A DNA stretch of 41,374 bases from a virus. The notes below the pieces were generated by a model. The model worked only from the letters and a program-made list of their open reading frames with translations. It made no database searches and was not told the origin of the DNA. Position 1 is the first letter of the stretch; every line of letters begins with the position of its first letter. The position numbers were made by a program, and so were the translations under genes. Of this stretch, positions 1 through 25,554 are shown in pieces. Location of the stretch: the IMG/VR virus record IMGVR_UViG_3300035670_000502, positions 1 through 41,374 of that record. One strand, 5' to 3'.

Positions 1-3000
1 TATTCTCAGGTATAGATTTACTTAAACCTTTAGAGTCTGTATTGATAGATGTTTGAACACCTCTAAGAGCTTCACCAATTTTCTTTAATTCTAAAAATCT
101 ATTTAGTGCTGCAAGTTGTAAAGCATTGTCAACCTCAACACTCTTAAGTTGTTGTTCTAATTGTAATGCAGATAGTATATCATTATTTTCTACATCTTTT
201 CTATAACCAAGTACATAATCTTTACCACCATATTTATTTAGTAGTTTATTTATAACTGCTTGTTCTTTATCACCATAAGAACTAATAACATTAGAGTTAG
301 CATTAGCCATCTCTTTACTATATTCTACAATAATAGGTTGAGATAAAAGTAAGAAAGGAATAGAGTTCTTAGATTCATTTTCACTCTTATCAAATCCTAA
401 GAATGCCATAGCTTTAGATGCATCAAGAGTAAATGAAGTAAGATTAACTCTACCCATTACTTGTTCTTTCTCATTATCTACTGCAATGTTTTGTAGTTCT
501 TCTAGTACTTCAGAGATAGTTCTTGAACCTTCTAATGTTTTAGATTCTCCTAGATTACCAGTACTTTCTTTTTCATTACCAAATCTTACTCTATACTTTT
601 CAGTTATATCTCTACCAGTAAGTGGGTCTTTACCTACTACAGCTCTAGCTTCAAGTTGAGTACCTTTAATCTTAGCTTGTTCAAATAAAGATTGTGAAGT
701 TACATCAAGAGAATAAGCACCAGTACCTACTTTACCACTAGCACCTAAGAACATTTTACTTTTTTGGTATTCAGAAGAAAGTGGTGTAAAATAAGTATTG
801 TCTTTTGTTTTATTAGTCCAGCTATCAATTAACTCTGCTTGTTCTTTAGCATAGTCAATAGATAAGATACCATTTATTTTTCTTTGTACTTCTTTAGATG
901 GATTACTAAATACTGCACTATATGTTTTAACAATCTTATTATGAAGAAGTTTTTCTTCATCACCTTCTTTCATTACTGTAATCTTACCATTCTCATCAGT
1001 TTCATGCCATAGTTGATAAGTATTTTCTTTATCTACGTCAAAGTCAAGACCTTTTTGTTTAGTAAAGTTTCTAGGTACAATCATTAAATCTCCTTGTTCT
1101 TGTGGTAAAAAACCTACAATTTCAATTTGAGATCCAGATTTATGTCCAGAAGTTGGAATCCTTAATGAAGTATTGTTTAATAATTCAGAATCAATCATGT
1201 CTTCTTTAAGTCTGAATCCTGTACTAGTCTTTGTTACATAAACATATTCTCCTTTTCTTTTTTCCAATAAGTCAATAAGAGTACCATCTTTTTTTCTAAA
1301 CTTAGATGGAGCTATTACCTGAGCAAATTTTAAATTACCATCTTTATCATATTTGGCTCCTTGTAAAGAATTGTTATTCCATTTAGAAGTCCATACTATT
1401 TTACTCTTGTCAATGTTTTTAAAGTTAGTTTGAACTTTAAATCCTTCTTCAGAACCTGCAATATAAGAGTTACCTGGAAGTTTTAGTTTAACTATTCTGT
1501 TATTGACAATAGCATTTAACAATGATTCAAATCTATCAGAGTTAGCAGTTAACCATATAGGCATTTTAAAACTGATATCATCTTCACCATTTATGTTTTT
1601 AACTTCAAGTTCAAGAGATTCAATAACTTGTCTAGAGTATCCTCTGTTTACAGCTTCAGTTTTTAAAATCTTTTGAAGTTTAGCAGCAGTTTCATAAACA
1701 TTTGTAGGTTTACCAGTTTTAATATCTATACCTAACTCATCATATAGTTGTTGTTTTTTAAGATTAGATAACTCTATAAATGACTTAGTAAATTCTTCTT
1801 CTAGTTCTGTACCAGTTAAAGATTTACCATCATACATAAATCCATCTAGTTCCATCATACCATTACCAAATAACAACTTCATTAACTGAGTTGTATTACT
1901 AATAGTATCTTCATCTCTTTTTAAAGATTTATAAGGTACATCTAACTGAATCTTAAAATCTTTTCTATTTAAAATTAATGAATGAGATTTAAGATCATCT
2001 ATAGATATTTCTTTAATAGAACCATCACCATTAAATATATCTAATCCTTTAGTTTTACTACCTACTTTGTTAGCAGTTTGATAAGAAGCTCTTACATATT
2101 TATATGGAGAAGGATTATCACCAGCACCTTCTTTTTGTAATTCTTCTAATGCCTTTGCTAACTTATCAAGTTCAGTACCTTCAGTTAATTGAGGAATAAG
2201 AGGGAATGAAGAAGACTTGATATACACCATTCTCATTACATCTTGCTTCTTATCAAATACTTGACCTGTATAAACTGGCTTAATAGGTTGTAATACTTTT
2301 TTAAGAATTTCCTTTTGAGCTTCAGTCAATTGAGATTTAGGAGTTCCACTAGCAAACATTTCTTTTGCTTGTCTTATTTCTTCAGGAGTAATATTTACTG
2401 CAACATCACTTAATCTACCTAACTTTTCAAGGATATGCATGTGCTCTTGCCATGTAGTATATTCTTGAGCATCAGTTCCTTCTATGTCAAAGTATCCATT
2501 TGAATTAGGATATTCAGCATAGAAAGCTTTCATGTCAGCTTCTCTTTTTAATTCAAACTCCTTAACAATTTTAGGATCTTCAGATGGAGATTTTCTATTC
2601 TTTATTTCATTGTATTTATTCCAATTGAATTTTTTATTATCTAAAAGCTCAGTAAGGAATTCAATATTTTCAGATAATGCAACTCTATCTGCCAATACTA
2701 TTTGAGTGTATTGTTCATTTTCAGAATCTGCTAATTTAGAACCTGGAGCAATCATTGCAGCTAATCTCTTACCTACATTTACAAAAGTTTCTTCAGATTT
2801 TTCTATAAATGACTTAGGTCCTTGAGATTCATCTACCTTATAATATAATGCAGGGTCACCAATGAATGTCATAAATGCATTGGCATTAGAAATCATTTGA
2901 TTAATTTCATAATCCATTGCAGCTAATTCTATTTTTTCTGTTTCATTAGTTGCCTGTATTTCATTTAAGTAAGCAGAGTTTAGTAACTTATTAGTTACAT

Positions 3001-6000
3001 TTCCACTTTCACTTACAGTATAGTAACCATTACTTTCCCATACTTTTAATTTTTCATCAGTTAGATAACGAACATAGTTTTGTAATTCTTTAAGAATTAA
3101 ATCTTTATGTTCTGCTAATACATTTTCTAACTCAGTTTCTTTATTTATAAGAACATCTCTTAATGTAATATCAATATTATCTTCAGTAGTTCCTACAACT
3201 AAGTTATTTAAATTAGGAAGTAATAAAAACATTTGAGCACCTTTATCATAATTCTTGATATCAGTTTTTCCTATGTTTTTAGTAAAGTTTAATATCCTTT
3301 CTAACTCAGGCATCACAAGTTGTTCAAATAATAAATTTGTAACACTTTCATTAGGTACTAACTTATTATCCTCATTAGTATCATATAATCTTTTTTCATT
3401 AAGCTTTAATGCCATTGTTTTAATTAAAGGCATTGTTGTCTTATCTGAATTTGTAGGAGTAAAGAATCTTGCAGTTCTTAAAGATATACTTTCATTACCT
3501 GTTACAAAAGGTTGTGTAAAGCTACCTTGTTTAACATCTTGGAACATTCCTACTTTAACTAATTCATGATCTATATCACCAAGAGAAGTTATACCATTAT
3601 CACCATAAATCTTTTTAGCATACTGCTTAATAGCATTAAGACTTAAATGACTTACATTAAATGTATCTCTAAATGACCAGTTTGGTAAATCTTTTCCATC
3701 TTCAAAGAATTGTAACCATAATGATTTCTTAGAGAAACTTAAATCTCTTAACTGATTTCTTAGTGCAGGATTAGTTTTTAAATCTTTAAATCTATCTGTA
3801 ATATATTTAGGTGCAGTAAATCCATAGATAGATTTTTTACCATCTCTAAATGAAGGAGTTACAACACCAGGAGAGAATCTAGACTGATGAACAGCAAGAG
3901 TATTCTCAATAGCACTTTGTAGTAAAGGATTATTGTCATCATCAAGCATCAATGGTTTATCTTCAGTTACAGAAACAGACTTAGTTGTTTCTAACCAATT
4001 AGCAAGTAATCCAATAGCTCCTCCTGTCTTATCAGATTTTTGGAAGAAGGTTCTAGGAGTAACTAATTTACCTTGATGATAAATACCATTTTTAAATATT
4101 GACTCAATAGCATCTTCAGTCATTTCAATACCAAATGCCCCTAACCAATTTTTAGTAATATCAAGTGCTTCTTGTTGTTCTTCTAAACTAAGTTGAGTAT
4201 AGTTTACAATAGCTGAAGACATTACATTTCTACCCATTGGAGTAATACTAATATTACCATCTTGAGTTAATGATACTCTATATGCAGTATTGTCAACTAC
4301 AAGTCTTCTATCTTTAGTTTTTAATGCAGCTACTAGTTTTTCAGTTTTTTCAGTAGGTGCAATTAAAAGTTTATTAGCTTTAACTGAAGGTGTAAGTAAT
4401 CTTGCATACTCTGATTTAATATCAGCAGGAGCATCTAACCATGATTTATATTGGTCATATAATTCATTGACTACATCTAATTGTATTTCTCCAAACTCAT
4501 TAACTAGTGGACTCTCAGCAGTAAGATTGTTTTTCCAATCTCTACTTATTTTATTTCCAATAGCAAATGAATTAGTGTTCATTACTTTTAACTTAACTCC
4601 TTGTGGACTAAAAGAGAACATCATAAACTCCATAGTCAAACCATGTTTACCCATTGTAGAGGTAAACTGATTCTTAACTTCATTACTTGAGTTTTCTAAC
4701 TTTTCAATAAATGCTGGAATCCATGGTTGCTTATCTTGATTCAACTTTAAGATATCTAACATTTGCTTATAATCTACAGGAGCATCAGCAAGAATACTCA
4801 TGATAGTATCAAATGCAGTATCAAAATCTACATACAATGGAGTACCCATTGCACCTGTTTTAGGTAATCCAGTTCTTACACTTACATCTGGAATATCTCT
4901 CATAAATCTTCTAAGAGTAGAAGTAACACTTGTCTTAGGGTTAACTTCTACTGAAGTTTTAGAATAGTTTTCAGTTCCAATGTATCCAGCTTCTTCTTCA
5001 GGAAACTCTGGTTCATCATCACCTTCTTGTTTATCTCCATCATTCTCATCAGAGTTATCTTTAATTTCTACTTTATTATCTACAATCTTACCATTTAAAT
5101 CTTTCAATGCTAATGCCAATGCTTGTTCATAAATAACATCAGCATTATCCATTACAAGATTTATCTTATCTAAAGCAACTTGATACTTGTTAATAAGAGT
5201 AGATACTTGTTGTATCTTATCTCCATTAGGTATTGCTTTAAGTTTAGCAAGATTATCTTCTAGTATTTGTTTATTGTTGCCTACTAAGGTATTAAGTTCT
5301 TCTACTACCTTATCTCTAATTTCTTTTTGATTTATTCTTTTAGTAGATAATACATCACCTAGTTTAATATTAACATAGTTAGCTAATTGAGTTTGATGTC
5401 TACTACTAAGACCATCAATTCTCATTAGGTTAATATTCATCTCTTTAACATCTTCATCTTCTATTTCTCTAGGTTGATAATTTACATCTTCAGAGTAATC
5501 ATTTTTAAAATACTCATTAACCCATTTAATTTGATTTTCAGATTGTTTTAAAAACTCAGTAAACTCTGCTATGTTATCTACTTCAGGTTCTGCTTCAAGA
5601 TAGTTTTCTACAATTTCTTTAGAATCATTATTCATTTCTTGAACAACCTGTTTAAGGTCTTCTACTTTTTCTTCTATTGTATTACCAAAAATTTCAATGC
5701 CATCTTGAATTAGTTCAGGAATTGCTTCTGCTAATTTTTCATCAGAGGTAGATTCAAGAACATTAGATATTTTTTGTTTATCTTGTTCAGTTACTTTATT
5801 GTCAGATACAGATTCTTGACCTTGATTTCTACTTATTGTACTTTTAGGTTCAAAGAAGATTGAAGGTTGTATTCTAGTAACATACTTAGGATTATTTTCA
5901 TTACCTATGTTTATTGATTTAATCTTAGTAGTTAAGTTATCTGCAAGATAGTCATGATAAGAATTAGCTACAGTAGTTAAACCAAAATTATTATTTACAT

Positions 6001-9000
6001 GAACTACAGGACCTGTCCATTGTTTAGATAAACTTAATTGAGATTTACTTAAAACTTGGTTAAGGTATTCTAGTTTAGCTTCAAGTTCAGGAGTTAAAAC
6101 TATTCTACCATTATCTAAACTCATCATGTCAGGGTGAAGTATGTTAGCTTTTTCTCCACTAATACCATAAACTAAATAACCATCTTGATAAAACATATAT
6201 GGTCTTCCTTTAGTCTGAGTATTTTGTATAGCAGTATAAGTTCTTTCTGCAGAAGCAAAATCTTTACTTGCTACTCTAGATTTTATATCTTCTTTAGCAG
6301 CACTTGAATATAGTTTTTTGTTATAGCTAAATATAATATAGTTAGAAAGTAATCTTTCAAATTGATTTCTATCTTTAATATCTAACTTAAGTCCATCTTC
6401 TTTATTAGGAATAGATTTAATTTGACTTTGTAAATTTAAAAATGTTCCTTTAGAAGTTTCTGGAATACTACTATTATTAAGAATAAGATTAGATAGAACT
6501 AAATTTGTAACAGTTTGAGCTTGTTCTTGATTAAGCTTTGGACTAATAGAGTACAATGCTTTATATGTAGGATTACCATCTTTGTCTGTACCCCATCTTC
6601 TTATATCTAATGCAATAATAGTTTTAGCATTTATATTTTGTTGTTGAGCACTAATAAATGGTTGAAGGTTAATTACATTAAGATTAACAGGTTTGTTATC
6701 TATATAAAGATTATATGCTCCATTACCATCTTGTCTAAGATATGCAACTTGTGCATCAGGATTAGCATTTCTTATTGTAACTGGATTAGAAGATTCTCTA
6801 GGGAATAATCCACCAGCATTATCAGATACTACAACTTTATATGTTTTACCTTTTTGATGAGCATCTTTAGCAGCTTTTCTAATTTCTCTAATATTAGATT
6901 GTGCTTGTTGGATATCTCCACCAAATGTAGTAGGATTATACCATTGTGGTTCATGAGCATAGGCTACATAATCTCCATTAGAATCTCTAACAAGCATAGG
7001 AATTCTATCCCAATACTCTTGAGAGTTTAAAAAGTTTTCACCTCTTGCTGCATACTCTTCTGTTTTACTATTTACCCAATCTGTAAACTTGATTGTTTTT
7101 CTTTTACCATTTTCATCAGTTTTTACAGCACCAAATAAAAGACTTGTAGTATCTTCTACTCTATCAGGTATAACTAAGAAGTCTAATATTTCTTGATCAG
7201 GTACTACTATTTCTAACTCAGTACCAGGTTGATAACTATCATAGTCTAATAACTTAGCAGACTTAACTAACTTAGTAAGTTTAAGTTCTGTAGGAAGTTC
7301 TTCAAATTCAGTAGTTACACTTACTCCTTCTACTTGTTCTTCGATAGTATATTTAATATTTGCCTGAGAAAAAGAATGCCCAAGCTTAGGTCTAGTATCT
7401 TGACCAATATCAGAAGTAGTTTCATAAACAGTTTTGTTTTCAGGGGTTACTGCTACAGGAACTTCTTTTACTTCTTTATTTTCATTATTAACTTGTTGAG
7501 TTAAATCTGTTGTTGATTCTTCAGTTGTACTAACTGTAATCTCTGATGATATTTCAGGAGCAAGATTCATTAAATCATTAATGATTTGTTTAGGGTCTTT
7601 AAACAACTTTGAAATAAGTGCATCATAGTTAGTTATAGTACCATAATTATTTAACTCCCAACCTTTACCTATTACTTTAATAAGTGCTTCTGCTTGTTTT
7701 CTACCTACATTCTTAATAAAGTTTTTCATCAATTCTTCAAAGGATGGAAAGTTACCAGACTCCATTTCCATTATCTCAACATAGTCAGATACAAGATCTT
7801 TTAATTCTTGTAACTTTTGTGCAGGTATATTCTCATTAAGTTCATTAGGTTGGTAATTAACATCTTCTTCAGGCTGTGCATTTATACCACTAGTAACAGG
7901 TTTAAATATTTTATAAATATTCTTGTTACCTATCTTTCCTTCTTCTACTCTCCAACCACTAAGTACATTATTTTTAATTCTATCTTTGATTACATCAACA
8001 GCATCTTTTATTTTCTTATTCTTTTCTTCATCTTTACTCTGTTGAACTATCAATTGATATTCATCACCAGCATAAGTAAACTCACTATTGATAAGATTAT
8101 CAGCAGCTATTTGAGCTTCTGTTCTATTGTCAGTAGTTATAGTTACAGTAACACTAGGTTCAAGTTTAACATAGTTATTTCCTTCTGACTTAATTGCACC
8201 TTTAGCAATAAGTGAATCTACAATAGTTTGAAAGTTAGTACCTAACTGTCTATGGAATAAAGGCTTTTGTATTTGATCACCTTTAATTTTATTTAATGCA
8301 GATTGCTCTTGAGGAGTTAAAATAACTTGTTTAGTTTCAGTAGCTTGCTTACCTTTTAATGCTGCTAGTTCTGCATCATATTTAGCATTGATTTTATTAG
8401 CGGCATTAACTTTGTTAAATCCAGCAGCTTTAGATTTTTCAATAGCTTGTTTAAGTTGTTCTACTGTATCAAATACTAATATAATAACTTTAGCAGCTTT
8501 AATCATTTTACCATCTTTATTTACTGCTGGTTCTACAATTCTGCTTACTGGATGAGGTATTTCATTTAAATCTACTTCTTCATTTCTTTTTTCAAGTTTA
8601 TCTAAATGTTTTTCAAGATTATTTACTTGTTCTTCTGATAAAATTTCATTATCATAAGGTATTGGTTGTGCACTTGCGTTTATTCCTTGAAAAAATGAAT
8701 TAAAAGTAATTATTTCATATCCATTTGTTTTTAATTGTTTTTTAGCATCTGTTAATTGTTGTTGTTGTTCATCATTTAACTGAGCACCTTGATCAACATT
8801 TTGCTCAATGCTTGTAATAATACTAGCTATCTCTTCAGGTTTTTTAGTTTCTGATAATTTTTCAAAAAGTAATTTAAATTGTTTTTGACCTAAACTATTT
8901 AATTCTTCTTGTCTTCTTCTTTCTATATCAGCTATTGCTTCTGCATCAGGAGTAGTTTCTCCAACTATTTTATCAACTTTACCTTCAGATAAAGGTTTAA

Positions 9001-11743
9001 CTGGGTTAGGATTAACTCCACTACTCTCAGCAACTAAATCTAAAATTTGATTACCTATTTTATTTGCTTCTGGATTTACTTCTTCAGTTTCAATTGTTTC
9101 TTGTACAGGAGCATTACCTTCTATTTCAGCTCTTCTTTTATCTACTTGAGCTGAGTTGTTAATATAAAATTCTTGTTCTGCTTTACTAAGAGTTTTCATT
9201 GTAGCACCACCTGCAAGTTTTCTTGCAACATTATCTAACATAGTTTGTTCAGCTACAGGTTCAGATGTTGGTGACTTACCTTCACTATTAGCAAGATCTT
9301 CATTACTCATAGTTTCAGATTGTTTAGTCTTATCTGAATACTTATCTCTAATATATTCTTGTTTAGTAATTTCTTGAGCAGCTATTTTTTTCTCATGGGC
9401 AAGTTGATAAAAATTTCTAATATCATTAAAATCTTTTTCATCAATTTTACCTTTATACTTTTCCATTATAGCATCTACTAAAGGCATATATTGATCAGTA
9501 CCTTTTAAAGATTCTAATTCAGCTTGTCCTGCTTTAAATACTTCACTTAATCTTTGTTCTTGTCTTAAAGATTTTTGATATTCTTTAGAAGTTATTCTAT
9601 TATATTCTTTTTCATTTTGATTTCTAATTTCTTTATTTGCTTTATATCTATTTTCTAATTCAACAAGTTCTCTAACTGCTTGTACATTTTGAGTTACATT
9701 ACTTCTAAATGCATCATATACAGTTCTTTCTTCAGTATCAGTATATGGATTTTCATCAAGTTTAGCAATATCAAAAGATAACTCTTTTCCTGGTATTTCT
9801 TTTTTTCCTACTACATTACCTTGTTCATCTAATATATCTTCTTTTTTACTAAGAGTTTTTAAAGTAGCTTCTCCAATTTCTAATGCTGTTTCTATTGCCT
9901 TACTAGCTTCAATTCTTTTTTGAACTATTTCATTTTGTAATTGATTTCCAGCTTTAGTTAAACTAAGGTCATTTACTCTATTACCAAATATTTGATCATC
10001 ATTAATAAATTTACCTTTTGTTTTTTCATATAGAGTTCCTAACTGTTGAATTTCTACAATAGCTTCTCTTGCTCTTGCTTGAACCTCAGGAGATGCTTTA
10101 GGATTATTACTTATCTTCTCATAGTTTTCAATAAGGTTACTAGTAGTGCCAGCATTAAAAGCTTCATAAGCTTGTATTGATAACATCTTAGATTTAATAG
10201 CATCAGCCTCTTCTTTATATCCTTGTTTTTCTAGCCTTGTAGCTTCTTTACCCATCATGTTTACTTGATCTAAAGTATTCATTAAGGTAGTAGTTTTTCT
10301 AATCATATCAGGTATTCCTGCTGATTCACCTATTTTATTTTCTTTTTGTATTTGAGCTTGTTGAGCTTCATATTTTTGTTTTCTACCTTCTTTTCCACCA
10401 TAACTAAGTATATCTTGACCAGCACCCATTATTCCACCACTTAGTGCACCTATTGCACCTTCATATAAGTTTGACCAATTAACACGATTTTTATCATAAT
10501 CCCAAACAATTTTAGATGCATCTCTAGCAGTATATTCTCCTTTAGTACCATAAGCTACACCTGCATATTCAGCATTTTTTTCAAGGATACCTTCTTCTAA
10601 AAATTCAGTACCTGCTTCTTCTAAAACTCTACCTTTTCCAATAAAAGATGGTTTACTTAATATATTTTTTGGACTATATAATGTTCTTGTAAATGCATTA
10701 GCTGTAATTAAGTTTAATGCAAAAATTGGAGCCATAGATTTTAAAGTTGCATCAGCACCATAACCTGCACTCTTAGTAGCTTGAGCACCAAGATCAGGGT
10801 GTTCTAAAGCAAAATCTTGTCTAGCTTTTTTAATAGCTTGCATTTGTGCCCATTCTGCATCTTTAATACTACCAGTTTCATTCATTACTTGTTCATAAGC
10901 TCTTTGTCCTGCTATACTTTCTATATCTTTTAATTCAGGAGCAAGACTATGTAATACTTCACCATATACTTTATCATGTACATCTTGAGCAATAGATAAA
11001 CCTGTAGATTCAGTCATTACAAATGCATTTAATAATGCATTTGCAGTTTTACCCATCTTTAATGCTTGACCTGCTTTTGCTACACCTGCACCTGGTATAA
11101 GCATACCTCCTACATTACCTACAATCATTGAAGATAAATTTGTTCCCCAATCAAACCAATCATTAGTAGTATTAACTTGAAAATAATGATTAGCATAATC
11201 TCTTGTTGCTTGAGCAGCTTTAGTCCAACCATTTCCTGTTACATCTCCATCACCTGCTATAGTATAATCATCTAATAGTTCAAAACCTTTATTAAATATT
11301 CCTGGAAGTTCAACCCAATCTGTATAGTCAGCTACATTTGTTTTATATCCAAGTAATCCAGCAGCTGCATCTATACTTCCCCCTATTGTTGGTAATCTCC
11401 AATCAGCAGGGTCAGTTACAAATCCTACTGTATCTAATACAAAAGCACCTGCAGTAGCTAATACATTAGCTGTCCATTTTGCAGTACCAGACCAAAAATT
11501 ATCATACTCTTCTTTGATTACATCTTGTTCAAGTTTTTTATTAATATCTTCAAGTTGTTGATCATATATTTTATTCTTCATAAAAGATTCATTCCCTAAT
11601 TGAGTTGAAGCAGTCCATGTAGGAGAACTCATTAATGAAGGATCTTTTTCTTGTATTTGTTTAACTATTTTACTAGCATCAACAGGTTCAGTATTTTGAT
11701 TTACACCTGGTTTAGGATTATTATTATCAAAGTTATTTGCCAT
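1..11743 (-). CDS. Giant virion protein: N-terminal ejection/cargo region fused to a crAss-type virion RNA polymerase (3' end outside window)
   Basis: I translated this frame codon by codon from the ATG at 11743 to the left edge and met no stop, giving 3914 codons with no end in sight. Residues about 60-420 are rich in Gly/Ala and hydrophobic helices, with an EEAGTEFLEEG motif at 375-385. Residues about 430-950 are charged and coiled-coil-like. An acidic linker lies at 2226-2254. After it come stretches of the crAss RNA polymerase type, then R3528-I-P-T-S-G-H and, 39 residues on, DFDVD at 3567-3571. That spacing resembles the NRxPTLH and NADFDGD elements of cellular RNA polymerase beta-prime, where the three Asp bind catalytic Mg. 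A single-chain virion polymerase with such a motif is known from the crAss-like phage phi14:2 (gp66). Inference: it is packaged, injected and transcribes early genes. The start lies 10 bases after the 824-residue gene. It may be proteolytically processed. The polymerase assignment is firm; roles of the N-terminal half are not. Confidence 0.88.
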   Translation of the reverse strand, partial: MANNFDNNNPKPGVNQNTEPVDASKIVKQIQEKDPSLMSSPTWTASTQLGNESFMKNKIYDQQLEDINKKLEQDVIKEEYDNFWSGTAKWTANVLATAGAFVLDTVGFVTDPADWRLPTIGGSIDAAAGLLGYKTNVADYTDWVELPGIFNKGFELLDDYTIAGDGDVTGNGWTKAAQATRDYANHYFQVNTTNDWFDWGTNLSSMIVGNVGGMLIPGAGVAKAGQALKMGKTANALLNAFVMTESTGLSIAQDVHDKVYGEVLHSLAPELKDIESIAGQRAYEQVMNETGSIKDAEWAQMQAIKKARQDFALEHPDLGAQATKSAGYGADATLKSMAPIFALNLITANAFTRTLYSPKNILSKPSFIGKGRVLEEAGTEFLEEGILEKNAEYAGVAYGTKGEYTARDASKIVWDYDKNRVNWSNLYEGAIGALSGGIMGAGQDILSYGGKEGRKQKYEAQQAQIQKENKIGESAGIPDMIRKTTTLMNTLDQVNMMGKEATRLEKQGYKEEADAIKSKMLSIQAYEAFNAGTTSNLIENYEKISNNPKASPEVQARAREAIVEIQQLGTLYEKTKGKFINDDQIFGNRVNDLSLTKAGNQLQNEIVQKRIEASKAIETALEIGEATLKTLSKKEDILDEQGNVVGKKEIPGKELSFDIAKLDENPYTDTEERTVYDAFRSNVTQNVQAVRELVELENRYKANKEIRNQNEKEYNRITSKEYQKSLRQEQRLSEVFKAGQAELESLKGTDQYMPLVDAIMEKYKGKIDEKDFNDIRNFYQLAHEKKIAAQEITKQEYIRDKYSDKTKQSETMSNEDLANSEGKSPTSEPVAEQTMLDNVARKLAGGATMKTLSKAEQEFYINNSAQVDKRRAEIEGNAPVQETIETEEVNPEANKIGNQILDLVAESSGVNPNPVKPLSEGKVDKIVGETTPDAEAIADIERRRQEELNSLGQKQFKLLFEKLSETKKPEEIASIITSIEQNVDQGAQLNDEQQQQLTDAKKQLKTNGYEIITFNSFFQGINASAQPIPYDNEILSEEQVNNLEKHLDKLEKRNEEVDLNEIPHPVSRIVEPAVNKDGKMIKAAKVIILVFDTVEQLKQAIEKSKAAGFNKVNAANKINAKYDAELAALKGKQATETKQVILTPQEQSALNKIKGDQIQKPLFHRQLGTNFQTIVDSLIAKGAIKSEGNNYVKLEPSVTVTITTDNRTEAQIAADNLINSEFTYAGDEYQLIVQQSKDEEKNKKIKDAVDVIKDRIKNNVLSGWRVEEGKIGNKNIYKIFKPVTSGINAQPEEDVNYQPNELNENIPAQKLQELKDLVSDYVEIMEMESGNFPSFEELMKNFIKNVGRKQAEALIKVIGKGWELNNYGTITNYDALISKLFKDPKQIINDLMNLAPEISSEITVSTTEESTTDLTQQVNNENKEVKEVPVAVTPENKTVYETTSDIGQDTRPKLGHSFSQANIKYTIEEQVEGVSVTTEFEELPTELKLTKLVKSAKLLDYDSYQPGTELEIVVPDQEILDFLVIPDRVEDTTSLLFGAVKTDENGKRKTIKFTDWVNSKTEEYAARGENFLNSQEYWDRIPMLVRDSNGDYVAYAHEPQWYNPTTFGGDIQQAQSNIREIRKAAKDAHQKGKTYKVVVSDNAGGLFPRESSNPVTIRNANPDAQVAYLRQDGNGAYNLYIDNKPVNLNVINLQPFISAQQQNINAKTIIALDIRRWGTDKDGNPTYKALYSISPKLNQEQAQTVTNLVLSNLILNNSSIPETSKGTFLNLQSQIKSIPNKEDGLKLDIKDRNQFERLLSNYIIFSYNKKLYSSAAKEDIKSRVASKDFASAERTYTAIQNTQTKGRPYMFYQDGYLVYGISGEKANILHPDMMSLDNGRIVLTPELEAKLEYLNQVLSKSQLSLSKQWTGPVVHVNNNFGLTTVANSYHDYLADNLTTKIKSINIGNENNPKYVTRIQPSIFFEPKSTISRNQGQESVSDNKVTEQDKQKISNVLESTSDEKLAEAIPELIQDGIEIFGNTIEEKVEDLKQVVQEMNNDSKEIVENYLEAEPEVDNIAEFTEFLKQSENQIKWVNEYFKNDYSEDVNYQPREIEDEDVKEMNINLMRIDGLSSRHQTQLANYVNIKLGDVLSTKRINQKEIRDKVVEELNTLVGNNKQILEDNLAKLKAIPNGDKIQQVSTLINKYQVALDKINLVMDNADVIYEQALALALKDLNGKIVDNKVEIKDNSDENDGDKQEGDDEPEFPEEEAGYIGTENYSKTSVEVNPKTSVTSTLRRFMRDIPDVSVRTGLPKTGAMGTPLYVDFDTAFDTIMSILADAPVDYKQMLDILKLNQDKQPWIPAFIEKLENSSNEVKNQFTSTMGKHGLTMEFMMFSFSPQGVKLKVMNTNSFAIGNKISRDWKNNLTAESPLVNEFGEIQLDVVNELYDQYKSWLDAPADIKSEYARLLTPSVKANKLLIAPTEKTEKLVAALKTKDRRLVVDNTAYRVSLTQDGNISITPMGRNVMSSAIVNYTQLSLEEQQEALDITKNWLGAFGIEMTEDAIESIFKNGIYHQGKLVTPRTFFQKSDKTGGAIGLLANWLETTKSVSVTEDKPLMLDDDNNPLLQSAIENTLAVHQSRFSPGVVTPSFRDGKKSIYGFTAPKYITDRFKDLKTNPALRNQLRDLSFSKKSLWLQFFEDGKDLPNWSFRDTFNVSHLSLNAIKQYAKKIYGDNGITSLGDIDHELVKVGMFQDVKQGSFTQPFVTGNESISLRTARFFTPTNSDKTTMPLIKTMALKLNEKRLYDTNEDNKLVPNESVTNLLFEQLVMPELERILNFTKNIGKTDIKNYDKGAQMFLLLPNLNNLVVGTTEDNIDITLRDVLINKETELENVLAEHKDLILKELQNYVRYLTDEKLKVWESNGYYTVSESGNVTNKLLNSAYLNEIQATNETEKIELAAMDYEINQMISNANAFMTFIGDPALYYKVDESQGPKSFIEKSEETFVNVGKRLAAMIAPGSKLADSENEQYTQIVLADRVALSENIEFLTELLDNKKFNWNKYNEIKNRKSPSEDPKIVKEFELKREADMKAFYAEYPNSNGYFDIEGTDAQEYTTWQEHMHILEKLGRLSDVAVNITPEEIRQAKEMFASGTPKSQLTEAQKEILKKVLQPIKPVYTGQVFDKKQDVMRMVYIKSSSFPLIPQLTEGTELDKLAKALEELQKEGAGDNPSPYKYVRASYQTANKVGSKTKGLDIFNGDGSIKEISIDDLKSHSLILNRKDFKIQLDVPYKSLKRDEDTISNTTQLMKLLFGNGMMELDGFMYDGKSLTGTELEEEFTKSFIELSNLKKQQLYDELGIDIKTGKPTNVYETAAKLQKILKTEAVNRGYSRQVIESLELEVKNINGEDDISFKMPIWLTANSDRFESLLNAIVNNRIVKLKLPGNSYIAGSEEGFKVQTNFKNIDKSKIVWTSKWNNNSLQGAKYDKDGNLKFAQVIAPSKFRKKDGTLIDLLEKRKGEYVYVTKTSTGFRLKEDMIDSELLNNTSLRIPTSGHKSGSQIEIVGFLPQEQGDLMIVPRNFTKQKGLDFDVDKENTYQLWHETDENGKITVMKEGDEEKLLHNKIVKTYSAVFSNPSKEVQRKINGILSIDYAKEQAELIDSWTNKTKDNTYFTPLSSEYQKSKMFLGASGKVGTGAYSLDVTSQSLFEQAKIKGTQLEARAVVGKDPLTGRDITEKYRVRFGNEKESTGNLGESKTLEGSRTISEVLEELQNIAVDNEKEQVMGRVNLTSFTLDASKAMAFLGFDKSENESKNSIPFLLLSQPIIVEYSKEMANANSNVISSYGDKEQAVINKLLNKYGGKDYVLGYRKDVENNDILSALQLEQQLKSVEVDNALQLAALNRFLELKKIGEALRGVQTSINTDSKGLSKSIPEN

Positions 11744-11753
11744 TACTATTTAG

Positions 11754-14228
11754 TTATTTAGTTAGAATATAGTTTTGCCATAATTGAATTCCATCTTGTC
11801 CATATCCTTCAATGATTTTTCCTTTATCATATATAATTACTTTACCTCTTGCTGTTCCTTGTAGTTCATTAGGATAATATATAACTCCATATTGATCTTC
11901 AATATAATTATTTTTTCCTTTTCCTAATCCTTCAAATTGACCTTGAGCATTATTAACTTGTTGTTGAACATAAGCTGATGCTTGAATCTTAGAATTATTA
12001 TTTACTACATTTTCAATTTTATTAATTTTAACATTATCTCTACTAGTTATAATATTTACATTTTCTGGTTGTGAGGTACCATCTGGTTTAATTGTAACTA
12101 ATTGTAAATTTGCATTAATAGGTAATAAACCAAGATCAATTTGTTCAGTTTTACCTTTACTTGTTTTAACTTGAAAGTTAGATACATCACCATCAATTAA
12201 ATCTACTTTATTTATTATAACTGCTAATTTATCTTTACTGTTAGGCATTTTATAAACTAATTTAACTACATCTTTATCTTCTGTTTGTTCTACTACTTGA
12301 TCAAGAGATATTTTTTTACTTGCTAATAAATCAACAAAGCTAGTATATGTTTGTACTACATTTCCTTTTGTATCAACTTTATTAACTACAGCATTTGTTG
12401 CACTAGATAAAGATGAAAGAAATTCAAAAGGATTCTTTTTAATATAATTAAGTCCTTCATTTAATTCTGCTACTTCATCTTTAGTAGCTATGTTATTTTT
12501 TGTCCATTCTGTACCTTGAACATTCTTAACTGTTTGAGTTACTTGATTTAATTTATTTGCAGCAGCATAATCATCTATATAAGTATCTAAATCTTTTTGC
12601 ATCATTTCATCTGCTAACTCTGGATTTATTAATCTTATTGCTGCATATTTAGTTTTTAAATATGTTTTTTGATCTTGATATTCTGGAGTATTCATGACTT
12701 TTGTCTTAATTGCACTAACTACTCTTTCATTATTACCAAGTGATCTCTGTGTTTCATTAAGAATTCTTGCTGCTTCCATTGTTCCTGGTAACTCAATACC
12801 TTTACCTTGTAAGAATTTTTCTAATCCTGCATAATCACCATTGTTTATATAATCATCTATTAATTCTTTATTTTGTTTTCTTTCAATTGCAGTAGCACCA
12901 AATTTTGATGGATTAGCATTTAAAGTATTTTGTATTTCATTAGCATAAGTACCTTTTAATTCATCTTTCATTAATTGTAATCCTTCATATGAAGCAGTAA
13001 GATTTTTAAATGCTTCACTAATTGTTGAACCAGATGTTTTTTGTGCAACTGTTTGACCTGTAGTATCTATTGTTACTATAGGATCTTCTATAGCTTTCTT
13101 AGCTTTAGCAACTGCAATTTCTTTATTCTTTTGTAATTCTATTTCTGCTGCTTCACTAAGATCTAAAGTTGTAGATCTAACTATTTGATTTATATCTTTT
13201 TTACCTGCAGCAGTTTGAGCAGCCATAAATAATTCACCAGGATTAACCATTCTCATTACAGGTACTTCTTCCTCTATTACTTTTCCATCTTTCATTTTTT
13301 TAACTTTTTGTGTCATAATCTTACCTTCAGCATCTTTTACTTCTTCCATTTTAAATTTACTAAAGGGATTACCTGGCTCTTCTCTTTCTCCAAATAATCT
13401 TGACCATTCTCTTTCATATCCTTTCTTTTCTCCACCTCCTTTTATTCTTGCTTTTTGAGTATTATAATTTATAGCTTTAGGATCATATAACATTGTATTA
13501 TAAATTCCCCAAGTTAATTCATCTGTTGGTAATAATCTATCTTTTTCTCTTGTAGTCACATAATAATTACCTACTAATTTTTCTGTAGTTACATCAGTAT
13601 CAGTACTTGGTTCCCAACCTTCAGCTATTTTTTCAAATTCTTTTTTACGATTATAAAAATCATAAAGTTTTTCAGTACCATAAGTTCTATACTTACCAGT
13701 AGTAGGGTCATAATTAACTCCACCTTTTTGTATAAGTTCTCCTGTAACTTCATCTCTTTTTTCAGCAGCATATCTTCTATCCCATTCTGCCATTGCTTCA
13801 GCTAAGTCTGCTTCATCTATAGTGCCATCTGCATTAGTAGCTCTTTTAGTTTCTTCTTCAAGATGCTTTTGTCTAATAGCATAATTACTATATTGTGCAG
13901 CTAGTTCTCCTCTAGTTACATCTTCATATATTCTATTACCTAATTGTCTAATTGCTTGTCTTTGTTTTAATGCTTCTAATGGACTAGTATCTCTTACTAA
14001 AGCATATTGTTTAATTTCATCCTCATATTGCTTAAGTAATTCTTGTTGTCTTGCTACATCAGGAGATAAGGCTTTATGCTGAAGTTGTTTTTGAAAATCA
14101 GTAATATATTGATCTTGTTTTTCAAGTTGAGCATCAGCACCTTTAATAGCACCTAATATAGCTTGTTCAGGTACTTGGTACATGAAATCAATCATATTAG
14201 GTTTTGCTGTTTTATAAAATCTTCCCAT
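11754..14228 (-). CDS. Internal virion (cargo) protein, 824 aa
   Basis: This protein begins MGRFYKTAKPN and has a highly charged, helical first 200 residues (many Glu, Lys, Gln and Arg, with heptad-like stretches such as QARQQELLKQYEDEIKQ-type sequence near residues 60-75), a middle part rich in Lys/Glu, and a more beta-prone C-terminus. I see no signal peptide, membrane segment or catalytic motif. Its N-terminal sequence and its place between the glycine-rich cargo protein and the virion polymerase fit the conserved cargo proteins that crAss-like phages package and eject. The family placement is from memory of crAss-like genomes, not a search. It stops 10 bases before the giant polymerase gene and starts 26 bases after the preceding gene, so the three are probably one transcript. 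A tail-lumen structural protein is the alternative. Confidence 0.65.
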   Translation of the reverse strand: MGRFYKTAKPNMIDFMYQVPEQAILGAIKGADAQLEKQDQYITDFQKQLQHKALSPDVARQQELLKQYEDEIKQYALVRDTSPLEALKQRQAIRQLGNRIYEDVTRGELAAQYSNYAIRQKHLEEETKRATNADGTIDEADLAEAMAEWDRRYAAEKRDEVTGELIQKGGVNYDPTTGKYRTYGTEKLYDFYNRKKEFEKIAEGWEPSTDTDVTTEKLVGNYYVTTREKDRLLPTDELTWGIYNTMLYDPKAINYNTQKARIKGGGEKKGYEREWSRLFGEREEPGNPFSKFKMEEVKDAEGKIMTQKVKKMKDGKVIEEEVPVMRMVNPGELFMAAQTAAGKKDINQIVRSTTLDLSEAAEIELQKNKEIAVAKAKKAIEDPIVTIDTTGQTVAQKTSGSTISEAFKNLTASYEGLQLMKDELKGTYANEIQNTLNANPSKFGATAIERKQNKELIDDYINNGDYAGLEKFLQGKGIELPGTMEAARILNETQRSLGNNERVVSAIKTKVMNTPEYQDQKTYLKTKYAAIRLINPELADEMMQKDLDTYIDDYAAANKLNQVTQTVKNVQGTEWTKNNIATKDEVAELNEGLNYIKKNPFEFLSSLSSATNAVVNKVDTKGNVVQTYTSFVDLLASKKISLDQVVEQTEDKDVVKLVYKMPNSKDKLAVIINKVDLIDGDVSNFQVKTSKGKTEQIDLGLLPINANLQLVTIKPDGTSQPENVNIITSRDNVKINKIENVVNNNSKIQASAYVQQQVNNAQGQFEGLGKGKNNYIEDQYGVIYYPNELQGTARGKVIIYDKGKIIEGYGQDGIQLWQNYILTK

Positions 14229-14254: not shown

Positions 14255-17200
14255 TTATTTACTTTCAGTAGTAGTTGTAGTAGATGCAGTTGTACTTGCT
14301 GCTTTTTTAGCTTCCTCATCCATTTTCTTTTTCTTTTCTCTAGCTTCTTTTTCAGTTATTGTTTTACCAGTACTATTATCTTTTAAAACAAAATTACCAT
14401 TTTCATCAATATCTGCATATATACCATAAGCTGAATAATATTTAGATGCTTGTAAGATATGTTTATTACGCAATGCAGTATTCATATCTCTACCACGTTT
14501 TTGAAGACCTTCAGAAATTGTAGTTGTATCTGTAGCAAGACTTTCCATATATTTATCAAAATCTTGTCTATTAGCTAAATCTCTTTGGTATTCACCACCC
14601 ATTCTAGTTTGATCTATTTGTTGTTGTAATTGAGCTCTTTGACCTTTTAATCCTGCCATTGATTGTAAATAACCACTCATAATATCTCTAGCTCCTTCTT
14701 GTTCAGCTAATGCAGCAGCTAATTGTTGAGTTCTAATATCACCTACTCCTCTAGCACTATTAGCTAATTGTTTTCTTAATGCATTTGATCTCATAAGATT
14801 TTTTCTATAAGCTTCATCTTTAGCCATACCTGCAATACCTTCAGCTTCCATTTGAGTTCTTAATGCTTCTTGTCCAAATTCACTAAAGAAGTTTTTATTC
14901 TTAGGAGTTCCTAACCAGTTTAACATTGTTATAGCAGCAGGTCCAAATGTACCTATTGTATTACCCATCATACCCATTCTATCTCCTTCAGTATATTTTA
15001 CATTGTCACCAGTTGTAGATTTAGTAGTTCCTCCAGCTTTAGGAGTTTTTTCTTTTTTATTTTTTTTACCTCCGCCAAAAATACCAAAAATATCTGACAA
15101 ATCAAATCCTGACCTATCTCTTTTTTCAGAAGTATAATTTGATGGAAGACTTTCTTCTACATCACTTATTGTTGCATTTATTGGTCTTAAATTCATAGGA
15201 AAAGTTTCTTCTCCAGGAACAGGTACAGGAATATAATTTGATGGATTCTTTTCATCAACAACTCCCATTGTTGCATTTAACTTTGGTAATCTTTTTAATT
15301 TTGAACTTAAATAACTTTCAGTTGGAGGATTAACTTCATTATAAACAACTCTTATTGGATTTCCTTGTTCATCATATTCTACATCTTCCATAAGTTTATA
15401 TTCAACTCCATCTATAGTTTCAGTAGGAATTATATCAGTATAATCTGGAACATAAGGAGTAACTAAAGATTCTCCATAAGGAATTTTATATTTAGGATTA
15501 AATCCTAATTCAGGAAAATTTAAAAAGTTAGTAGTAGGAACTCCATCTTCAGGAGTACCATTATCATACTTTACTAAACCACCCATTGCTTTTTCTGCTG
15601 CTCTAATTTTCTTTTCTTGCTTTAACATTTCTTTAGTTGGTCTTTTACCTGAACCTTTGTTAGCTCTGATGTTATCCCATAGTCCTCTTTTACTATAAGA
15701 ACCATCAGCTCTTTTAATCATACCACCCATAGCCATCATACCTTGTTGGATATCTTGTTGTGCAGCACCCATTAACATTTCTTCCATAGCTTGCTCTTGC
15801 ATAGCTTGTTGTTGATTAGCTTGTTCTTGCATTTGCATATCTTGTTGCTCTTCTAAAGATGCAGTTTCTTGTTGTCTTTGAAGTGCTTCTTTTATAAACC
15901 TATCACTAGGATTTTTAGTAAGAAGCTTTTCTAATTTCTTAATGTTAGCTTCTCTTTTCTCTTTTCTTGCAGCCATAGTTTTACCATTAACTTTTAATCT
16001 GTCAGAATATATTTTAGTACCTTCAGGTAAAGCAATAGGTATTCCTCCATTTTCATGTTTAGGACCTTGAAACTCTCCTGTTTGTCCATCAGGTAATTCA
16101 TACATTTCTTCACCTTCTACTTCTACAGGAATGTTTTGAGGTACTTGTCCACCACCAGCATAAGAACCATACATCATTTGTTCCATATACATTGATGGAT
16201 CTATCATACCACCAAATGCCATTAAAGGATCCATCATAGGTTGAGACTGAGGTTGGGGTTGAGTTCTAGCTTTTTCAAGAACTCCAGGAACTCCTAACTC
16301 AACAGCTTCTTCACCAGTTAAAACTCCTGATTGTAAAAACTTTCTATATAAAGCTTCATCTCTATCTGCTTGTGCAGGATCACCTTCTTTTCTATATTTT
16401 TCAAAATACTTTTTAGCACTAGGTCTAAGATCAGATACAGGTACTACATTACTTCTTGGTGTAACATTAACAGCAGGTTGAGGTTTACCATATTTTTTTT
16501 CAACATATGCTTGTTCTTCAGGAGTTCTCATTGAATATGGTTTAACTGCAATTGGGTCATAGTTTAACATTATTGCAGCATCCTCAGCTTTAGGGTTAAG
16601 TGGGTTACTTAAAGTATATTTTGCAGCACCTTGAGGAGCTATTCTTTCATCTAATGTTTGATAAGGAAGATCTGTATTATATCCCATAGGAGAAAGTAGT
16701 TCAGCTACATTATACTTATAGTCATCAACTTTCTTATTAGAATAAAATTCTCCTACATCTTTAACTTGTTTATTAGGATATTTAGCTGCTGCAGTTCCAG
16801 TTAACTTAACTTGCTCTAATTTTTTATTAGGAGATTTAACTTTAAGTTTTCCATTAACTAATCCAAATTCATCAGTATTTACAAATTGATTAAAAGCATC
16901 AAATATGTTATAAGTATCTTGTTTCTTATAACCTAAATCTTCCATTTTCTTTCCAAATTCCATAGCTGAATGATATACATTTAAACTATCAGATGTAGTA
17001 GGTTTTAATGGTGGAAGTGTAGGATCACCAGGACCTCCAGTCATCCCTCCTAATGCCATAGCATCAAATGCATCCATATAACCACCTTCAACTAAACCTC
17101 CCATAGCCTTTTTCCACTTAGATGCATTTCTAGCAAAGTTAGCTTTCTTAACCATAGCAGGAGAATACTTATCTTTATTTGCTAATACTTGTCTAGCAAA

Positions 17201-17806
17201 TTCTTGAACACCTTTACCTCTCTTTGTTGCAGCTGCAGTAAATGTTCCTCTCTTAGATGGTTTAATATTTATCTTACCCCCATTAGCATAATGAGCTCCT
17301 ATGTTTTTAAAAGTAGGCCTCATTTCTTCTTCAGGTTCAAATGACTTAACCATATCAGTAATAGATTTCATTGTTGCATTAGCAAGAGGACCAAGGGGGC
17401 CTAATAATTTACTTGCCATTTGACTTGCAGAATTAAAACTATCAGAATTACTAGAAGTGTTAGAATTTTTTGAATTACTACTATTGTTATTAAAATACTT
17501 AGATATTTTATTTATATCATTAACCATTTCTCCAAACTTATTAGGAGTAACATCACTTCCTCCACCCATAACATTCATGTTTTGTAAGTTAGGATTATTT
17601 ACTTGTTGAAAAGCATTAAGGTAAGGATTTGAGTTTCCTGTACCCATAATATTCATACCTTGTAAATTAGAATTACTTACTTGTTGGAATGCATTAGGGT
17701 AATTACTTGTACTTGCAGGTATAGGAGTTGTAGTAAGAAAATTACCCCATATTGCTTTAGGTAAACCATTATCTATAGGTAAGTTTTTATTTTTTTTCTT
17801 TTTCAT
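14255..17806 (-). CDS. Large cargo/internal virion protein with MGG-rich motifs, 1183 aa
   Basis: I chose the ATG at 17806 (MKKKKNKNLP), which begins one base after the TAA of the tail hub gene. The frame is open to an ATG at 17842, which would overlap that gene by 35 bases. Visible parts: two 26-residue repeats built on NAFQQV..NLQ.MN.MG (about 36-84); a Ser/Asn-rich stretch; a basic motif IKPSKRGTFTAAATKRGKG with KKANFARNASKW (about 177-233); several AMGGLV/AMGGMI/AFGGMI boxes; a VEVEGEE...LPDG...GPKHENGG segment (about 560-590); a Gln/Met/Glu-rich helix (about 645-690); and a SKRGLWDNIRANKGSGKRPT motif (about 705-725). The C-terminus is charged and ends in a Thr/Ala run. These motifs recur in large virion proteins of many phages. 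Position before the 824-residue and polymerase genes suggests a cargo protein ejected with the DNA. The specific function is unknown. Confidence 0.68.
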   Translation of the reverse strand: MKKKKNKNLPIDNGLPKAIWGNFLTTTPIPASTSNYPNAFQQVSNSNLQGMNIMGTGNSNPYLNAFQQVNNPNLQNMNVMGGGSDVTPNKFGEMVNDINKISKYFNNNSSNSKNSNTSSNSDSFNSASQMASKLLGPLGPLANATMKSITDMVKSFEPEEEMRPTFKNIGAHYANGGKINIKPSKRGTFTAAATKRGKGVQEFARQVLANKDKYSPAMVKKANFARNASKWKKAMGGLVEGGYMDAFDAMALGGMTGGPGDPTLPPLKPTTSDSLNVYHSAMEFGKKMEDLGYKKQDTYNIFDAFNQFVNTDEFGLVNGKLKVKSPNKKLEQVKLTGTAAAKYPNKQVKDVGEFYSNKKVDDYKYNVAELLSPMGYNTDLPYQTLDERIAPQGAAKYTLSNPLNPKAEDAAIMLNYDPIAVKPYSMRTPEEQAYVEKKYGKPQPAVNVTPRSNVVPVSDLRPSAKKYFEKYRKEGDPAQADRDEALYRKFLQSGVLTGEEAVELGVPGVLEKARTQPQPQSQPMMDPLMAFGGMIDPSMYMEQMMYGSYAGGGQVPQNIPVEVEGEEMYELPDGQTGEFQGPKHENGGIPIALPEGTKIYSDRLKVNGKTMAARKEKREANIKKLEKLLTKNPSDRFIKEALQRQQETASLEEQQDMQMQEQANQQQAMQEQAMEEMLMGAAQQDIQQGMMAMGGMIKRADGSYSKRGLWDNIRANKGSGKRPTKEMLKQEKKIRAAEKAMGGLVKYDNGTPEDGVPTTNFLNFPELGFNPKYKIPYGESLVTPYVPDYTDIIPTETIDGVEYKLMEDVEYDEQGNPIRVVYNEVNPPTESYLSSKLKRLPKLNATMGVVDEKNPSNYIPVPVPGEETFPMNLRPINATISDVEESLPSNYTSEKRDRSGFDLSDIFGIFGGGKKNKKEKTPKAGGTTKSTTGDNVKYTEGDRMGMMGNTIGTFGPAAITMLNWLGTPKNKNFFSEFGQEALRTQMEAEGIAGMAKDEAYRKNLMRSNALRKQLANSARGVGDIRTQQLAAALAEQEGARDIMSGYLQSMAGLKGQRAQLQQQIDQTRMGGEYQRDLANRQDFDKYMESLATDTTTISEGLQKRGRDMNTALRNKHILQASKYYSAYGIYADIDENGNFVLKDNSTGKTITEKEAREKKKKMDEEAKKAASTTASTTTTTESK
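17555..17701 (-). repeat. Two tandem 26-residue repeats in the cargo gene
   Basis: Two adjacent copies of a 78-base unit encode Y(P/L)NAFQQV.N.NLQ.MN(I/V)MG.G. The first copy is at about 17624-17701 and the second at about 17555-17623. The DNA copies differ at several bases, so the duplication is not recent or is held at protein level. The function is unknown. Confidence 0.75.
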
Positions 17807-17807
17807 A

Positions 17808-20800
17808 TTATCTAAAGGATTGTTGTTCAGTTTCAATAACAAAGTTTGTAGTTAATTCTACTTCTTCAAAGTTAGCAAATCTGAGTCTTATAATTAAATA
17901 TTTATCTCTGAAACTTTCTTGATCATACCAGTCTTTATCTATATCAATAGCTGCAGGATTAATTACTTTATCAATAGGATACTCAGGTGCTAAAGCAGTC
18001 CAGTCTTTAGTAAACATAGGAATTGTATAATCAATTCTCATATCTCTAAAGTCATTTATATGCCAATCTCTTTCTTTTCTATCTATTACAATTGATGTAT
18101 TAGAGTTAGTAGTTTGTTGCTCATAATAATCTTGAGGATTAGTTTGAGTATCTTTAACAACCATATCTAATTCACCTGTAGTTTGTCTACTATTATATAA
18201 TGTAATATAGTTAAATGTTTTCCATCTTACATCATAGTAATCTTTATTAACAGCATCCCAAGTTCTTGCATAAGTTTCTAATGTAATATCTTCCCATAGT
18301 CTTGTAGTTAATGGATTAGATACAGATACTGTTTCAAGAATATATGGATAATCTGTTCCATAAAACTTTTGATGATTACCTATTATATTATGTTTATATA
18401 AGTTAGTAACACCAATAGAAGAATAAAAATTATGTTGGTCACTATAATAAAATAATGGTAAATAAGAATGGAATGATACCCATGTATTTGACAATAGTGA
18501 AAAACTAATTGTAAATGATTTGTTTTCAAAGTATTCTTTATTAGTAAAGAATATAGGGGTTGCTCCACCTACATTATTTCCAATAGCAAACAATTCTAAA
18601 AACTTAATATAATATATTTGACCTTCTACATATCCTGTAAATAATGGATCAGTTACAATAGTAATGCTTTCAGAATAAGGAGGTAAAAGTTTATAATCTC
18701 TTTTAGTTATAATTATTCTTTGATGTCTAGGGTCATATACACTATGAATACCTACAGCATTAGGATTATTAGGGTTATTTAAATATGGAAACTCTTCACC
18801 AGTTAATTGTAAAAACTGATTACCTAAATAAGATTCTACATTTTCAAAAAACCAATTATACATTCCTTGATTAGAAATTTTTTGTAACCCTTCACCTGCT
18901 GTAATGTAAACTGCTTTTTCTATTTCAGATACATACACTATACCTATTGGAGTTTTAACTACTGACCATTTATGTCTAGTACCTGCACTACCCATATCTG
19001 AATCTACTACCTTTCTAGGAGGTATAGAGAAATAACTACCAGTTCCCAAAAAGGTAACTATATCACTAACTACTGATTGTTGTACATTTTGTGGTAAGTA
19101 CCATAAACATTCTTCAGTAAGTATAAATAAGTTATTGTTCTTTCTAACTAAATCAGTTATAGAACCATGTTCAGCTTCTATATCTCTATAATTATTAGAA
19201 AGGATAACTCTAAAGTTATCTCCATTTTCTTCTGAAAAACTTTGTTCAGAATAATATACTCTTGTTGGAAAACTTTGTAAACATTCTGAACAACAATCAT
19301 AAGATCTAGGTAAAGAGAAGTATATTTTCTCTTTAGCCATTCTAGAAAAATCTATATTATAATGATAAGGTTCAGGACATGGGGCAGCTTTAGGAGTCCA
19401 CTTTTCATTGTCTTGATCATAATACATTATTTTAGATCTAAAATATTTTGCAGTCCAAATATCATTTTTAAAATATTCACCACAAGCATTTAATTCAGGT
19501 TGCCTTAATGCTACATTAATTTCTGATTCTACATATACTCCCATTAAATATTCATTAGCATAAAATACTGTAGTTCCAAGAACACTAGATAATCCATCTA
19601 AATCTGGATCTTGAACTAATTGATCTAAATCAGTTTCTTGCATAGCATCTACTATTGCAGAAATACCATTTGCAGTAATTCCTACTGCAAATAAAACTAC
19701 TATTCCAACTGCTGCAGGAATAGTTAAAGCAGATGCTGCACCTAAAGTTAAAACTGTTAAAACAGCTAATCCAAATAATGCAATGTAATTAAGAATTTGA
19801 GTTTCAGGTCCTTTAAAAAATTCTCTAAATAAAGTGTTAGTTAATTTAAATTGAGTTATATATACATCACCTCCAAATATTCTTGGTTGATTTACTACAC
19901 TTGAATCACCATTAATAACACAGTTATGCATTTTGTAATATTTAATTCCTTCAAGATTACAATGCACATCTCTTTCTACTCTATAAGTAATATAATTCAT
20001 ATCATCACCATTTCTTGGTAATCTATAATTTATATTTAATTCTCCAACTTGTATATTATTAGTTAAAGAAGTATTATATAATCTAGCACTTGGTGCAAAA
20101 CCTGAAACAAAACTATCATCAAAACTTGCCCCATATAAAGTCATAAATTTACTAGGAGTATGATTAGTTCCTGAGTTAGTAGCATTAGTACCACTATAAA
20201 ATTGTGTTCTATAATCTATTCCTGTATCAGTATCATTATAAGCATTACCAACTCCATCTTCAAATAAATATCCTAAATTAATTTGAGTATTTATAAACTC
20301 TAATTCTTGTTTTATGTATTGAGGCCTTAAGTTTTCTTTTTGATATAAAAATTTAGGAGTAAAAAAATAATGATATTTTGAATTACTATTTCTTTTAGTA
20401 AAATAAGCAAAACCTATATAAAAAAATGAATCTGTAGGTTTTTGTCTTAAAGATCTACCAATACCTGAATCTAATATTGTTCTATTAAATTCATCTCTTT
20501 CTGCTCTAACAAAATAATGACCTATAATATCAGGATGTGGATATTCAACATTGTCAAATTGAACACCTAACATATTTAATGTAGAATTATTAAATGTATT
20601 TTCATATGCAAATTCTACTGTGTATGTTACTTCAAAATCAGTAGGATATAAAGCACAAAGACTTAAAGGATCAATTGTACAATCAATATTAGTAATTAAT
20701 ATAGGATCATCAACTGAAACTGTAGCAACAGTAAATGTATATTCTAAAGTTGTAGGATCAAAATCAGTATCATTTACAACTGATGTAACAGGAGTTTGAG

Positions 20801-25524: not shown

Positions 25525-25554
25525 AAAAAATTATTACTTAATCAACAAATAGTT

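Follow-up and report, generated by a model that had tools for sequence, protein, structure and literature searches.

The window, by which we mean the whole 41,374-base stretch of DNA that was analysed, is an IMG/VR fragment whose record holds nothing beyond it. Its left part is taken up by a single reading frame on the minus strand that begins with an ATG at 11743, runs for 3914 codons without a stop and is still open at the left window edge. Upstream on the same strand lie genes of 824, 1195 and 1582 amino acids, followed by small virion genes and then by the genes for the major capsid protein, the portal and the terminase. The features discussed below are these:

2..11743, minus strand: giant open reading frame of at least 3914 aa, running off the left edge (match to PHROG 16227, E 2.6e-237)
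2..5668, minus strand: RNA polymerase part, residues 2026-3914, homologue of phi14:2 gp66 residues 4-1754
2..3571, minus strand: modelled RNA polymerase core, residues 2725-3914 (AlphaFold2, pLDDT 88.3, pTM 0.86)
1031..1045, minus strand: DFDVD catalytic metal-binding motif, residues 3567-3571 (D-x-D-x-D-K invariant in 58 sequences)
1142..1162, minus strand: RIPTSGH, residues 3528-3534 (R and P invariant in the 58-sequence alignment)
5669..11743, minus strand: N-terminal half, residues 1-2025, mostly helical, homologue of phi14:2 gp67, a separate virion protein
11081..11137, minus strand: hydrophobic segment, residues 203-221 (Kyte-Doolittle mean 1.37; weak)
11417..11473, minus strand: hydrophobic segment, residues 91-109, candidate membrane or amphipathic helix (Kyte-Doolittle 19-residue mean 1.44; weak)
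11754..14228, minus strand: 824-aa gene directly upstream of the giant gene, similar at its N-terminus to the FpV4 gene in the same position (blastp 25% over 149 aa, E 3e-8)
14255..17842, minus strand: 1195-aa gene, homologue of an FpV4 virion-block gene (PHROG 15413, E 1.5e-56; FpV4, E 3e-32)
17808..22556, minus strand: 1582-aa virion structural protein (PHROG 15100, E 2e-261; FpV4 1961-aa gene, E 4e-170)
34923..36377, minus strand: major capsid protein (PHROG 11589, E 1e-177)
37597..40032, minus strand: portal protein (PHROG 6547, E 1e-191; 51% identical to Flavobacterium Fipvunavirus phages)
40037..41374, minus strand: terminase large subunit, its 5' end cut by the window (PHROG 6681, E 3e-109)

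This gene order is that of the usual crAss-like late block: the crAss-type portal, major capsid protein and terminase, by which membership of the crAss-like group is judged, are all present in their customary order, and 158 phage records, from crAss-like phages in many cases, contain a match to the portal protein. The 1195-aa gene product is also weakly similar to the crAss001 cargo protein gp45 (E 5e-5). Within the virion block, at 24769-26412, we observed an exonuclease-like gene (PHROG 298) and a metallophosphoesterase gene, as in other crAss-like phages.

The window has a GC content of about 29%, at which arithmetic gives stops for about 8% of random codons, so that 3914 open codons cannot be due to chance; the longest open reading frame on the opposite strand beneath the giant gene has 126 aa. 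An earlier note, made from the sequence by itself, had reported the stop-free frame, the DFDVD motif and an arginine, R3528, 39 residues before it, and all of these were found again. The PHROG 16227 profile that the frame matches is 4401 positions long and is labelled 'virion structural protein'. A search of the visible 3914 aa for curated Pfam domains found none; a Menorin match in the same search fell below the cut-off and was dismissed. A scan for close relatives with the whole 3914-aa protein gave no match, because its peptide patterns sat in unconserved parts. The window stops 350 aa past the DFDVD motif, and as the record is a fragment and an exact DNA scan of IMG/VR with the left end of the window found no continuing contig, the 3' end of the gene is not recoverable.

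Residues 2026-3911 of the giant protein align with residues 4-1754 of gp66, the virion RNA polymerase of Cellulophaga phage phi14:2 (blastp against a small set, E 5e-39). A profile built only from the large clade to which the window belongs, omitting phi14:2-like rows, matched gp66 at E 2.7e-62 and crAss001 gp50 at E 9.6e-52, and was silent on shuffled and reversed controls and on gp65, gp67, gp47 and gp49. When phi14:2-like rows were included, 6VR4, the phi14:2 enzyme, was the only strong match in the PDB; a single-sequence phmmer search of the PDB with the giant protein returned noise only. In an alignment of 58 relatives, R3528, P3530, D3567, D3569, D3571 and K3572 are all invariant (alignment positions 804, 806, 843, 845, 847 and 848, to which 2724 is added to give residue numbers of the giant protein).

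The structural model of residues 2725-3914 has 6VR4 as its top Foldseek match (E 7e-41) and superposes on that crystal structure with a Z score of 26.1 and a root mean square deviation of 3.0 Å over 965 residues (VIA-align). The next matches are the two-barrel polymerases QDE-1 and plant RDR2 (Z 10-17, QDE-1 at about 16-17) and phage RNA polymerases of the P23-45 type (Z 8.6-11), and residues 695-897 of the model align with largest-subunit RNA polymerase chains in the region of the DxDxD double-psi barrel. The superposition of the model as a whole supports the presence of both barrels in one chain with the overall fold of gp66. The earlier note had called this region a virion RNA polymerase and had staked that identity on such a fold around DFDVD; both are borne out by the profile and by the model, which confirms the C-terminal part as a two-barrel virion RNA polymerase of the phi14:2 gp66 type. 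From the conserved catalytic aspartates and lysine we predict that it synthesizes RNA. Its packaging and injection are likewise predicted, by analogy with homologues that are annotated from virion MS/MS.

The N-terminal half is weakly conserved: beyond the clade of the window, identity is 10-20%, and tblastn with this half alone retrieved no phage record at 1e-5. Its link to gp67 is clear from profiles only: a 35-sequence profile of the half matched the gp67 family with hhalign at a probability of 99.0 (E 4e-18, 635 columns), pairing window residues 73-990 with gp67 residues 66-733. For residues 1-1000, AlphaFold2 predicts a mostly helical structure with moderate confidence (mean pLDDT 65.9). 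This model had no match in the PDB, and its viral matches were of low TM score, the best being a crAss-like protein of cr108_1 and another a polyvalent-ART protein; for these reasons we claim no fold for this half. That the polymerase is fused behind a second giant cargo region, as the earlier note proposed, nevertheless holds, the N half being the homologue of a cargo-type virion protein; 'ejection-type' is a fair guess for it. The junction had been placed at about residues 2200-2260, which now fall inside the polymerase part, the gp67/gp66 boundary lying near residue 2026. Nor does anything point to a frameshift where the junction had been suspected: homology to four relatives is colinear across residues 2000-2500, and the second codon position changes least.

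Two separate virion genes of phi14:2 are thus one frame in the window. In phi14:2, gp67 (1797 aa) and gp66 (2180 aa, with DFDID at 1361) are followed by gp65, and all three are annotated from virion MS/MS. A single fused frame is also present in the cultured Flavobacterium psychrophilum phages FpV4 (4287 aa) and FPSV-S29 (4419 aa), and in the Crassvirales genomes cr118_1 (Besingivirus, 4946 aa) and cr52_1 (4464 aa); with table 11 the last shows 37 stop codons in frame, and for alignment it was translated with table 15 (TAG=Q). Two overlapping IMG/VR scans (80 and 24 loci), together with references, yielded a tree of 77 polymerase cores, in which 56 rows are fused, 16 split and five undecided. 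Fusion thus accounts for 56 of the 72 decidable rows, and the fused/split pattern needs only three state changes. The window belongs to an all-fused clade of six rows (support 100), with L009 as its sister (support 98). Around it is a larger, 40-row clade, in which L016 alone is split.

The earlier note treated the fusion as a peculiarity, which it is not. A 2023 review gives the unusually large RNA polymerase gene, encoding up to about 6000 aa, as a hallmark of crAss-like phages (PMC10136315), and large multidomain proteins of their transcription block have been described (PMC7886860). With the fused frame found in most relatives and giant polymerases already in the literature, the window represents a known type: the gp67-gp66 fusion is the normal state in its phage group, to which it adds a well-supported member.

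Several relatives showed further arrangements. L016 (2107-14917) carries the two parts as frames of 1473 and 2698 aa with a gap of about 290 bases, a candidate for a recent fission or an intron-like interruption. L083 (1322-18250) encodes a 5642-aa chain that has also taken in, at the C-terminal end, a part resembling crAss001 gp49, which brings three transcription-block genes into one frame. The isolate Chitinophaga sp. YR573 has a fused crAss-like RNA polymerase frame of 5485 aa on a contig of 4.8 Mb (L109, NZ_FOJF01000001.1, 1535-17992), probably in a prophage; crAss-like phages are, to our knowledge, generally regarded as non-integrating. Frames with a crAss-type GSDFDID were also seen on contigs labelled as archaeal MAG chromosomes (L105, 9158-13432, and L115; Aenigmatarchaeota and Woesearchaeota); they may represent integrated elements or chimeras, or may belong to another RNA polymerase family.

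The nearest annotated phages are FpV4 and FPSV-S29 (Fipvunavirus), in which the product is called 'structural protein'. They share with the window the gene order and the single fused frame, and their polymerase part is 31-38% identical to that of the window; their chains are shorter than the likely length of the window product, however, carry a zincin-like HEVIH late in the chain and have no detected helicase tail. The phi14:2 proteins are homologous in polymerase fold, catalytic motif and N-terminal partner but are encoded by two genes. Bacteroides phage crAss001 gp50 contains DFDVD and is packaged cargo (PMC10172136); unlike in the window, the parts gp47, gp49 and gp50 are encoded apart and on both strands. 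Beyond the crAss-like phages, gp96 of Thermus phage P23-45 (5002 aa) is likewise a giant injected virion protein with a two-barrel RNA polymerase (PMC10770324), although there the polymerase is N-terminal, is fused to the tape measure and has a more distant fold (Z 8.6). Coliphage N4 gp50 is also a giant injected multidomain virion RNA polymerase, and an example of polyvalent injected proteins, but its polymerase is of the T7 type rather than two-barrel (PMC5512222).

The five closest relatives indicate what may lie beyond the left edge. Their chains measure 5042 (L009), 5146 (L012), at least 5556 (L010), 5877 (L091) and 6557 aa (L011), with 1698-2423 residues after the motif. By phylogenetic bracketing, the window chain would continue for 1300-2100 residues past the edge to a total of about 5,260-5,990 aa, so that the size of about 4300 residues given in the earlier note is too low. 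All five carry an SF1 helicase domain (Dda/RecD2/PIF1-like) on the C-terminal side, and by the same bracketing the window protein probably ends in a domain of this type. In the sister L009 (residues ~4640-4760), other residues stand in place of the Walker A threonine (GASGTGKQ) and of the Walker B acidic pair (NN), which suggests that this chain keeps an inactive helicase. On the tree of 77 rows, helicase tails occur in at least four places (four changes), a lower bound since the Pfam scan did not cover every tail; a helicase profile scan of all 77 rows recovered seven of the eight known tails and missed that of L035. Giant crAss-like chains on which we noted SF1-helicase tails are L011, L090, L091, L010, L009, L012, L035, L077 and cr118_1 (L004). 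The last, annotated 'DNA helicase', joins polymerase and C-terminal SF1 helicase in one chain like the closest relatives of the window, yet lies far from the window in the tree and apparently gained its helicase separately.

Other domains accompany the helicase. The tail of L011 contains NADAR (2.6e-16) and L010 contains ART-PolyVal (4.2e-8); elsewhere in the tree, L035 combines a cpYpsA/SLOG domain (1.2e-29) with a helicase-like ATPase. With cpYpsA/SLOG also in L067, the region behind the polymerase has the appearance of a variable slot for accessory domains. Polyvalent proteins (Iyer et al. 2017) are packaged chains that combine several unrelated enzymatic or effector domains; among the five closest relatives the helicase is present in all, NADAR in L011 and ART-PolyVal in L010, and the window ends before that region. 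These tails suggest that crAss-like virion RNA polymerases act as polyvalent injected proteins, a behaviour that we did not find stated in the literature searched, the domain drawings in Fig. 3 of Yutin 2021 lying outside its scope.

From these observations, we consider it very probable that the product of this gene is a polypeptide which a crAss-like podovirus of Bacteroidota packs into its virions, with residues ~1-2025 of the gp67 type and those from ~2026 onward forming a single-chain two-barrel RNA polymerase of the gp66 type, in one frame. More tentatively, and at slightly less than even odds, we hypothesize that the product is one chain of more than 5,200 residues that unites packaging/ejection cargo, virion RNA polymerase, a C-terminal SF1 helicase and a variable slot (NADAR, ADP-ribosyltransferase or SLOG-type in relatives), and that it is injected as a 'polyvalent' start-up machine transcribing the incoming genome and acting on host DNA or on NAD/ADP-ribose-based defences. 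To judge from phi14:2 and crAss001, the protein would be made late and packed in the head near the portal. On ejection it would pass the narrow tail in an at least partly unfolded state, probably N-terminus first, in which case the helical half leads, and in the host it would refold and transcribe early phage genes without the host RNA polymerase. RNA polymerase proteins have been described as cargo ejected with partial unfolding through constrictions of <50 Å (PMC10172136), and the phi14:2 enzyme transcribes early genes (PMC7886860; PMC10136315).

The chain might instead be translated whole and then processed by a protease, either while the virion matures or once ejection has taken place, to give gp67-like and gp66-like pieces and perhaps a tail piece, so that the mature proteins resemble those of phi14:2. 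This is a serious rival, since phages of the phi14:2 type encode the two parts as separate genes and separate chains can evidently work. In 33 of the 77 relatives, a zincin-like HExxH motif lies over 600 aa beyond DFDxD, and zincin-like domains occur in the N4 virion RNA polymerase and other polyvalent proteins (PMC5512222). The motif, late in the chain in FpV4-like relatives, is however mostly absent from the clade of the window: the window protein has no copy in the part that is seen, and of the five closest relatives L010 alone has one, located in its N half. Moreover, the N4 enzyme (PMC5512222) and P23-45 gp96 (PMC10770324) are intact in virions. We regard cleavage as less likely than not.

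Considerably less probable is an internal start near residue 2026 that yields an extra, separate polymerase chain from the same mRNA; the polymerase part does stand as its own frame in L016, which belongs to the same large clade and has the two parts split, but every member of the window's clade has kept the fusion even though splitting can occur. An assembly error or frameshift joining two genes might be suspected in a metagenomic contig whose homologous parts are separate genes in phi14:2, and we reject it almost with certainty, as the same colinear frame recurs in independent contigs, in cultured phages and in one isolate bacterial chromosome. Finally, DFDVD might have arisen by chance in a helical virion protein unrelated to polymerases. 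D-rich motifs do turn up by chance in long proteins, and several reference-set proteins have other, clearly non-homologous DxDxD matches, but this reading is refuted to the same degree by the structural match to 6VR4, along with the invariant residues and the profile matches to gp66.

The same parts exist as separate genes in phi14:2, as a two-part fusion in most relatives and, in the clade of the window, as longer chains with a helicase and NAD/ADP-ribose-related domains. The further enzyme domains of the closest relatives, the DNA helicase among them, merit a closer look. The passage of a chain of more than 500 kDa through a narrow tail and the role of the extra domains on entry thus become testable in cultured phages, by setting phi14:2 against FpV4, and this comparison matters more than the additional family member that the window itself provides.
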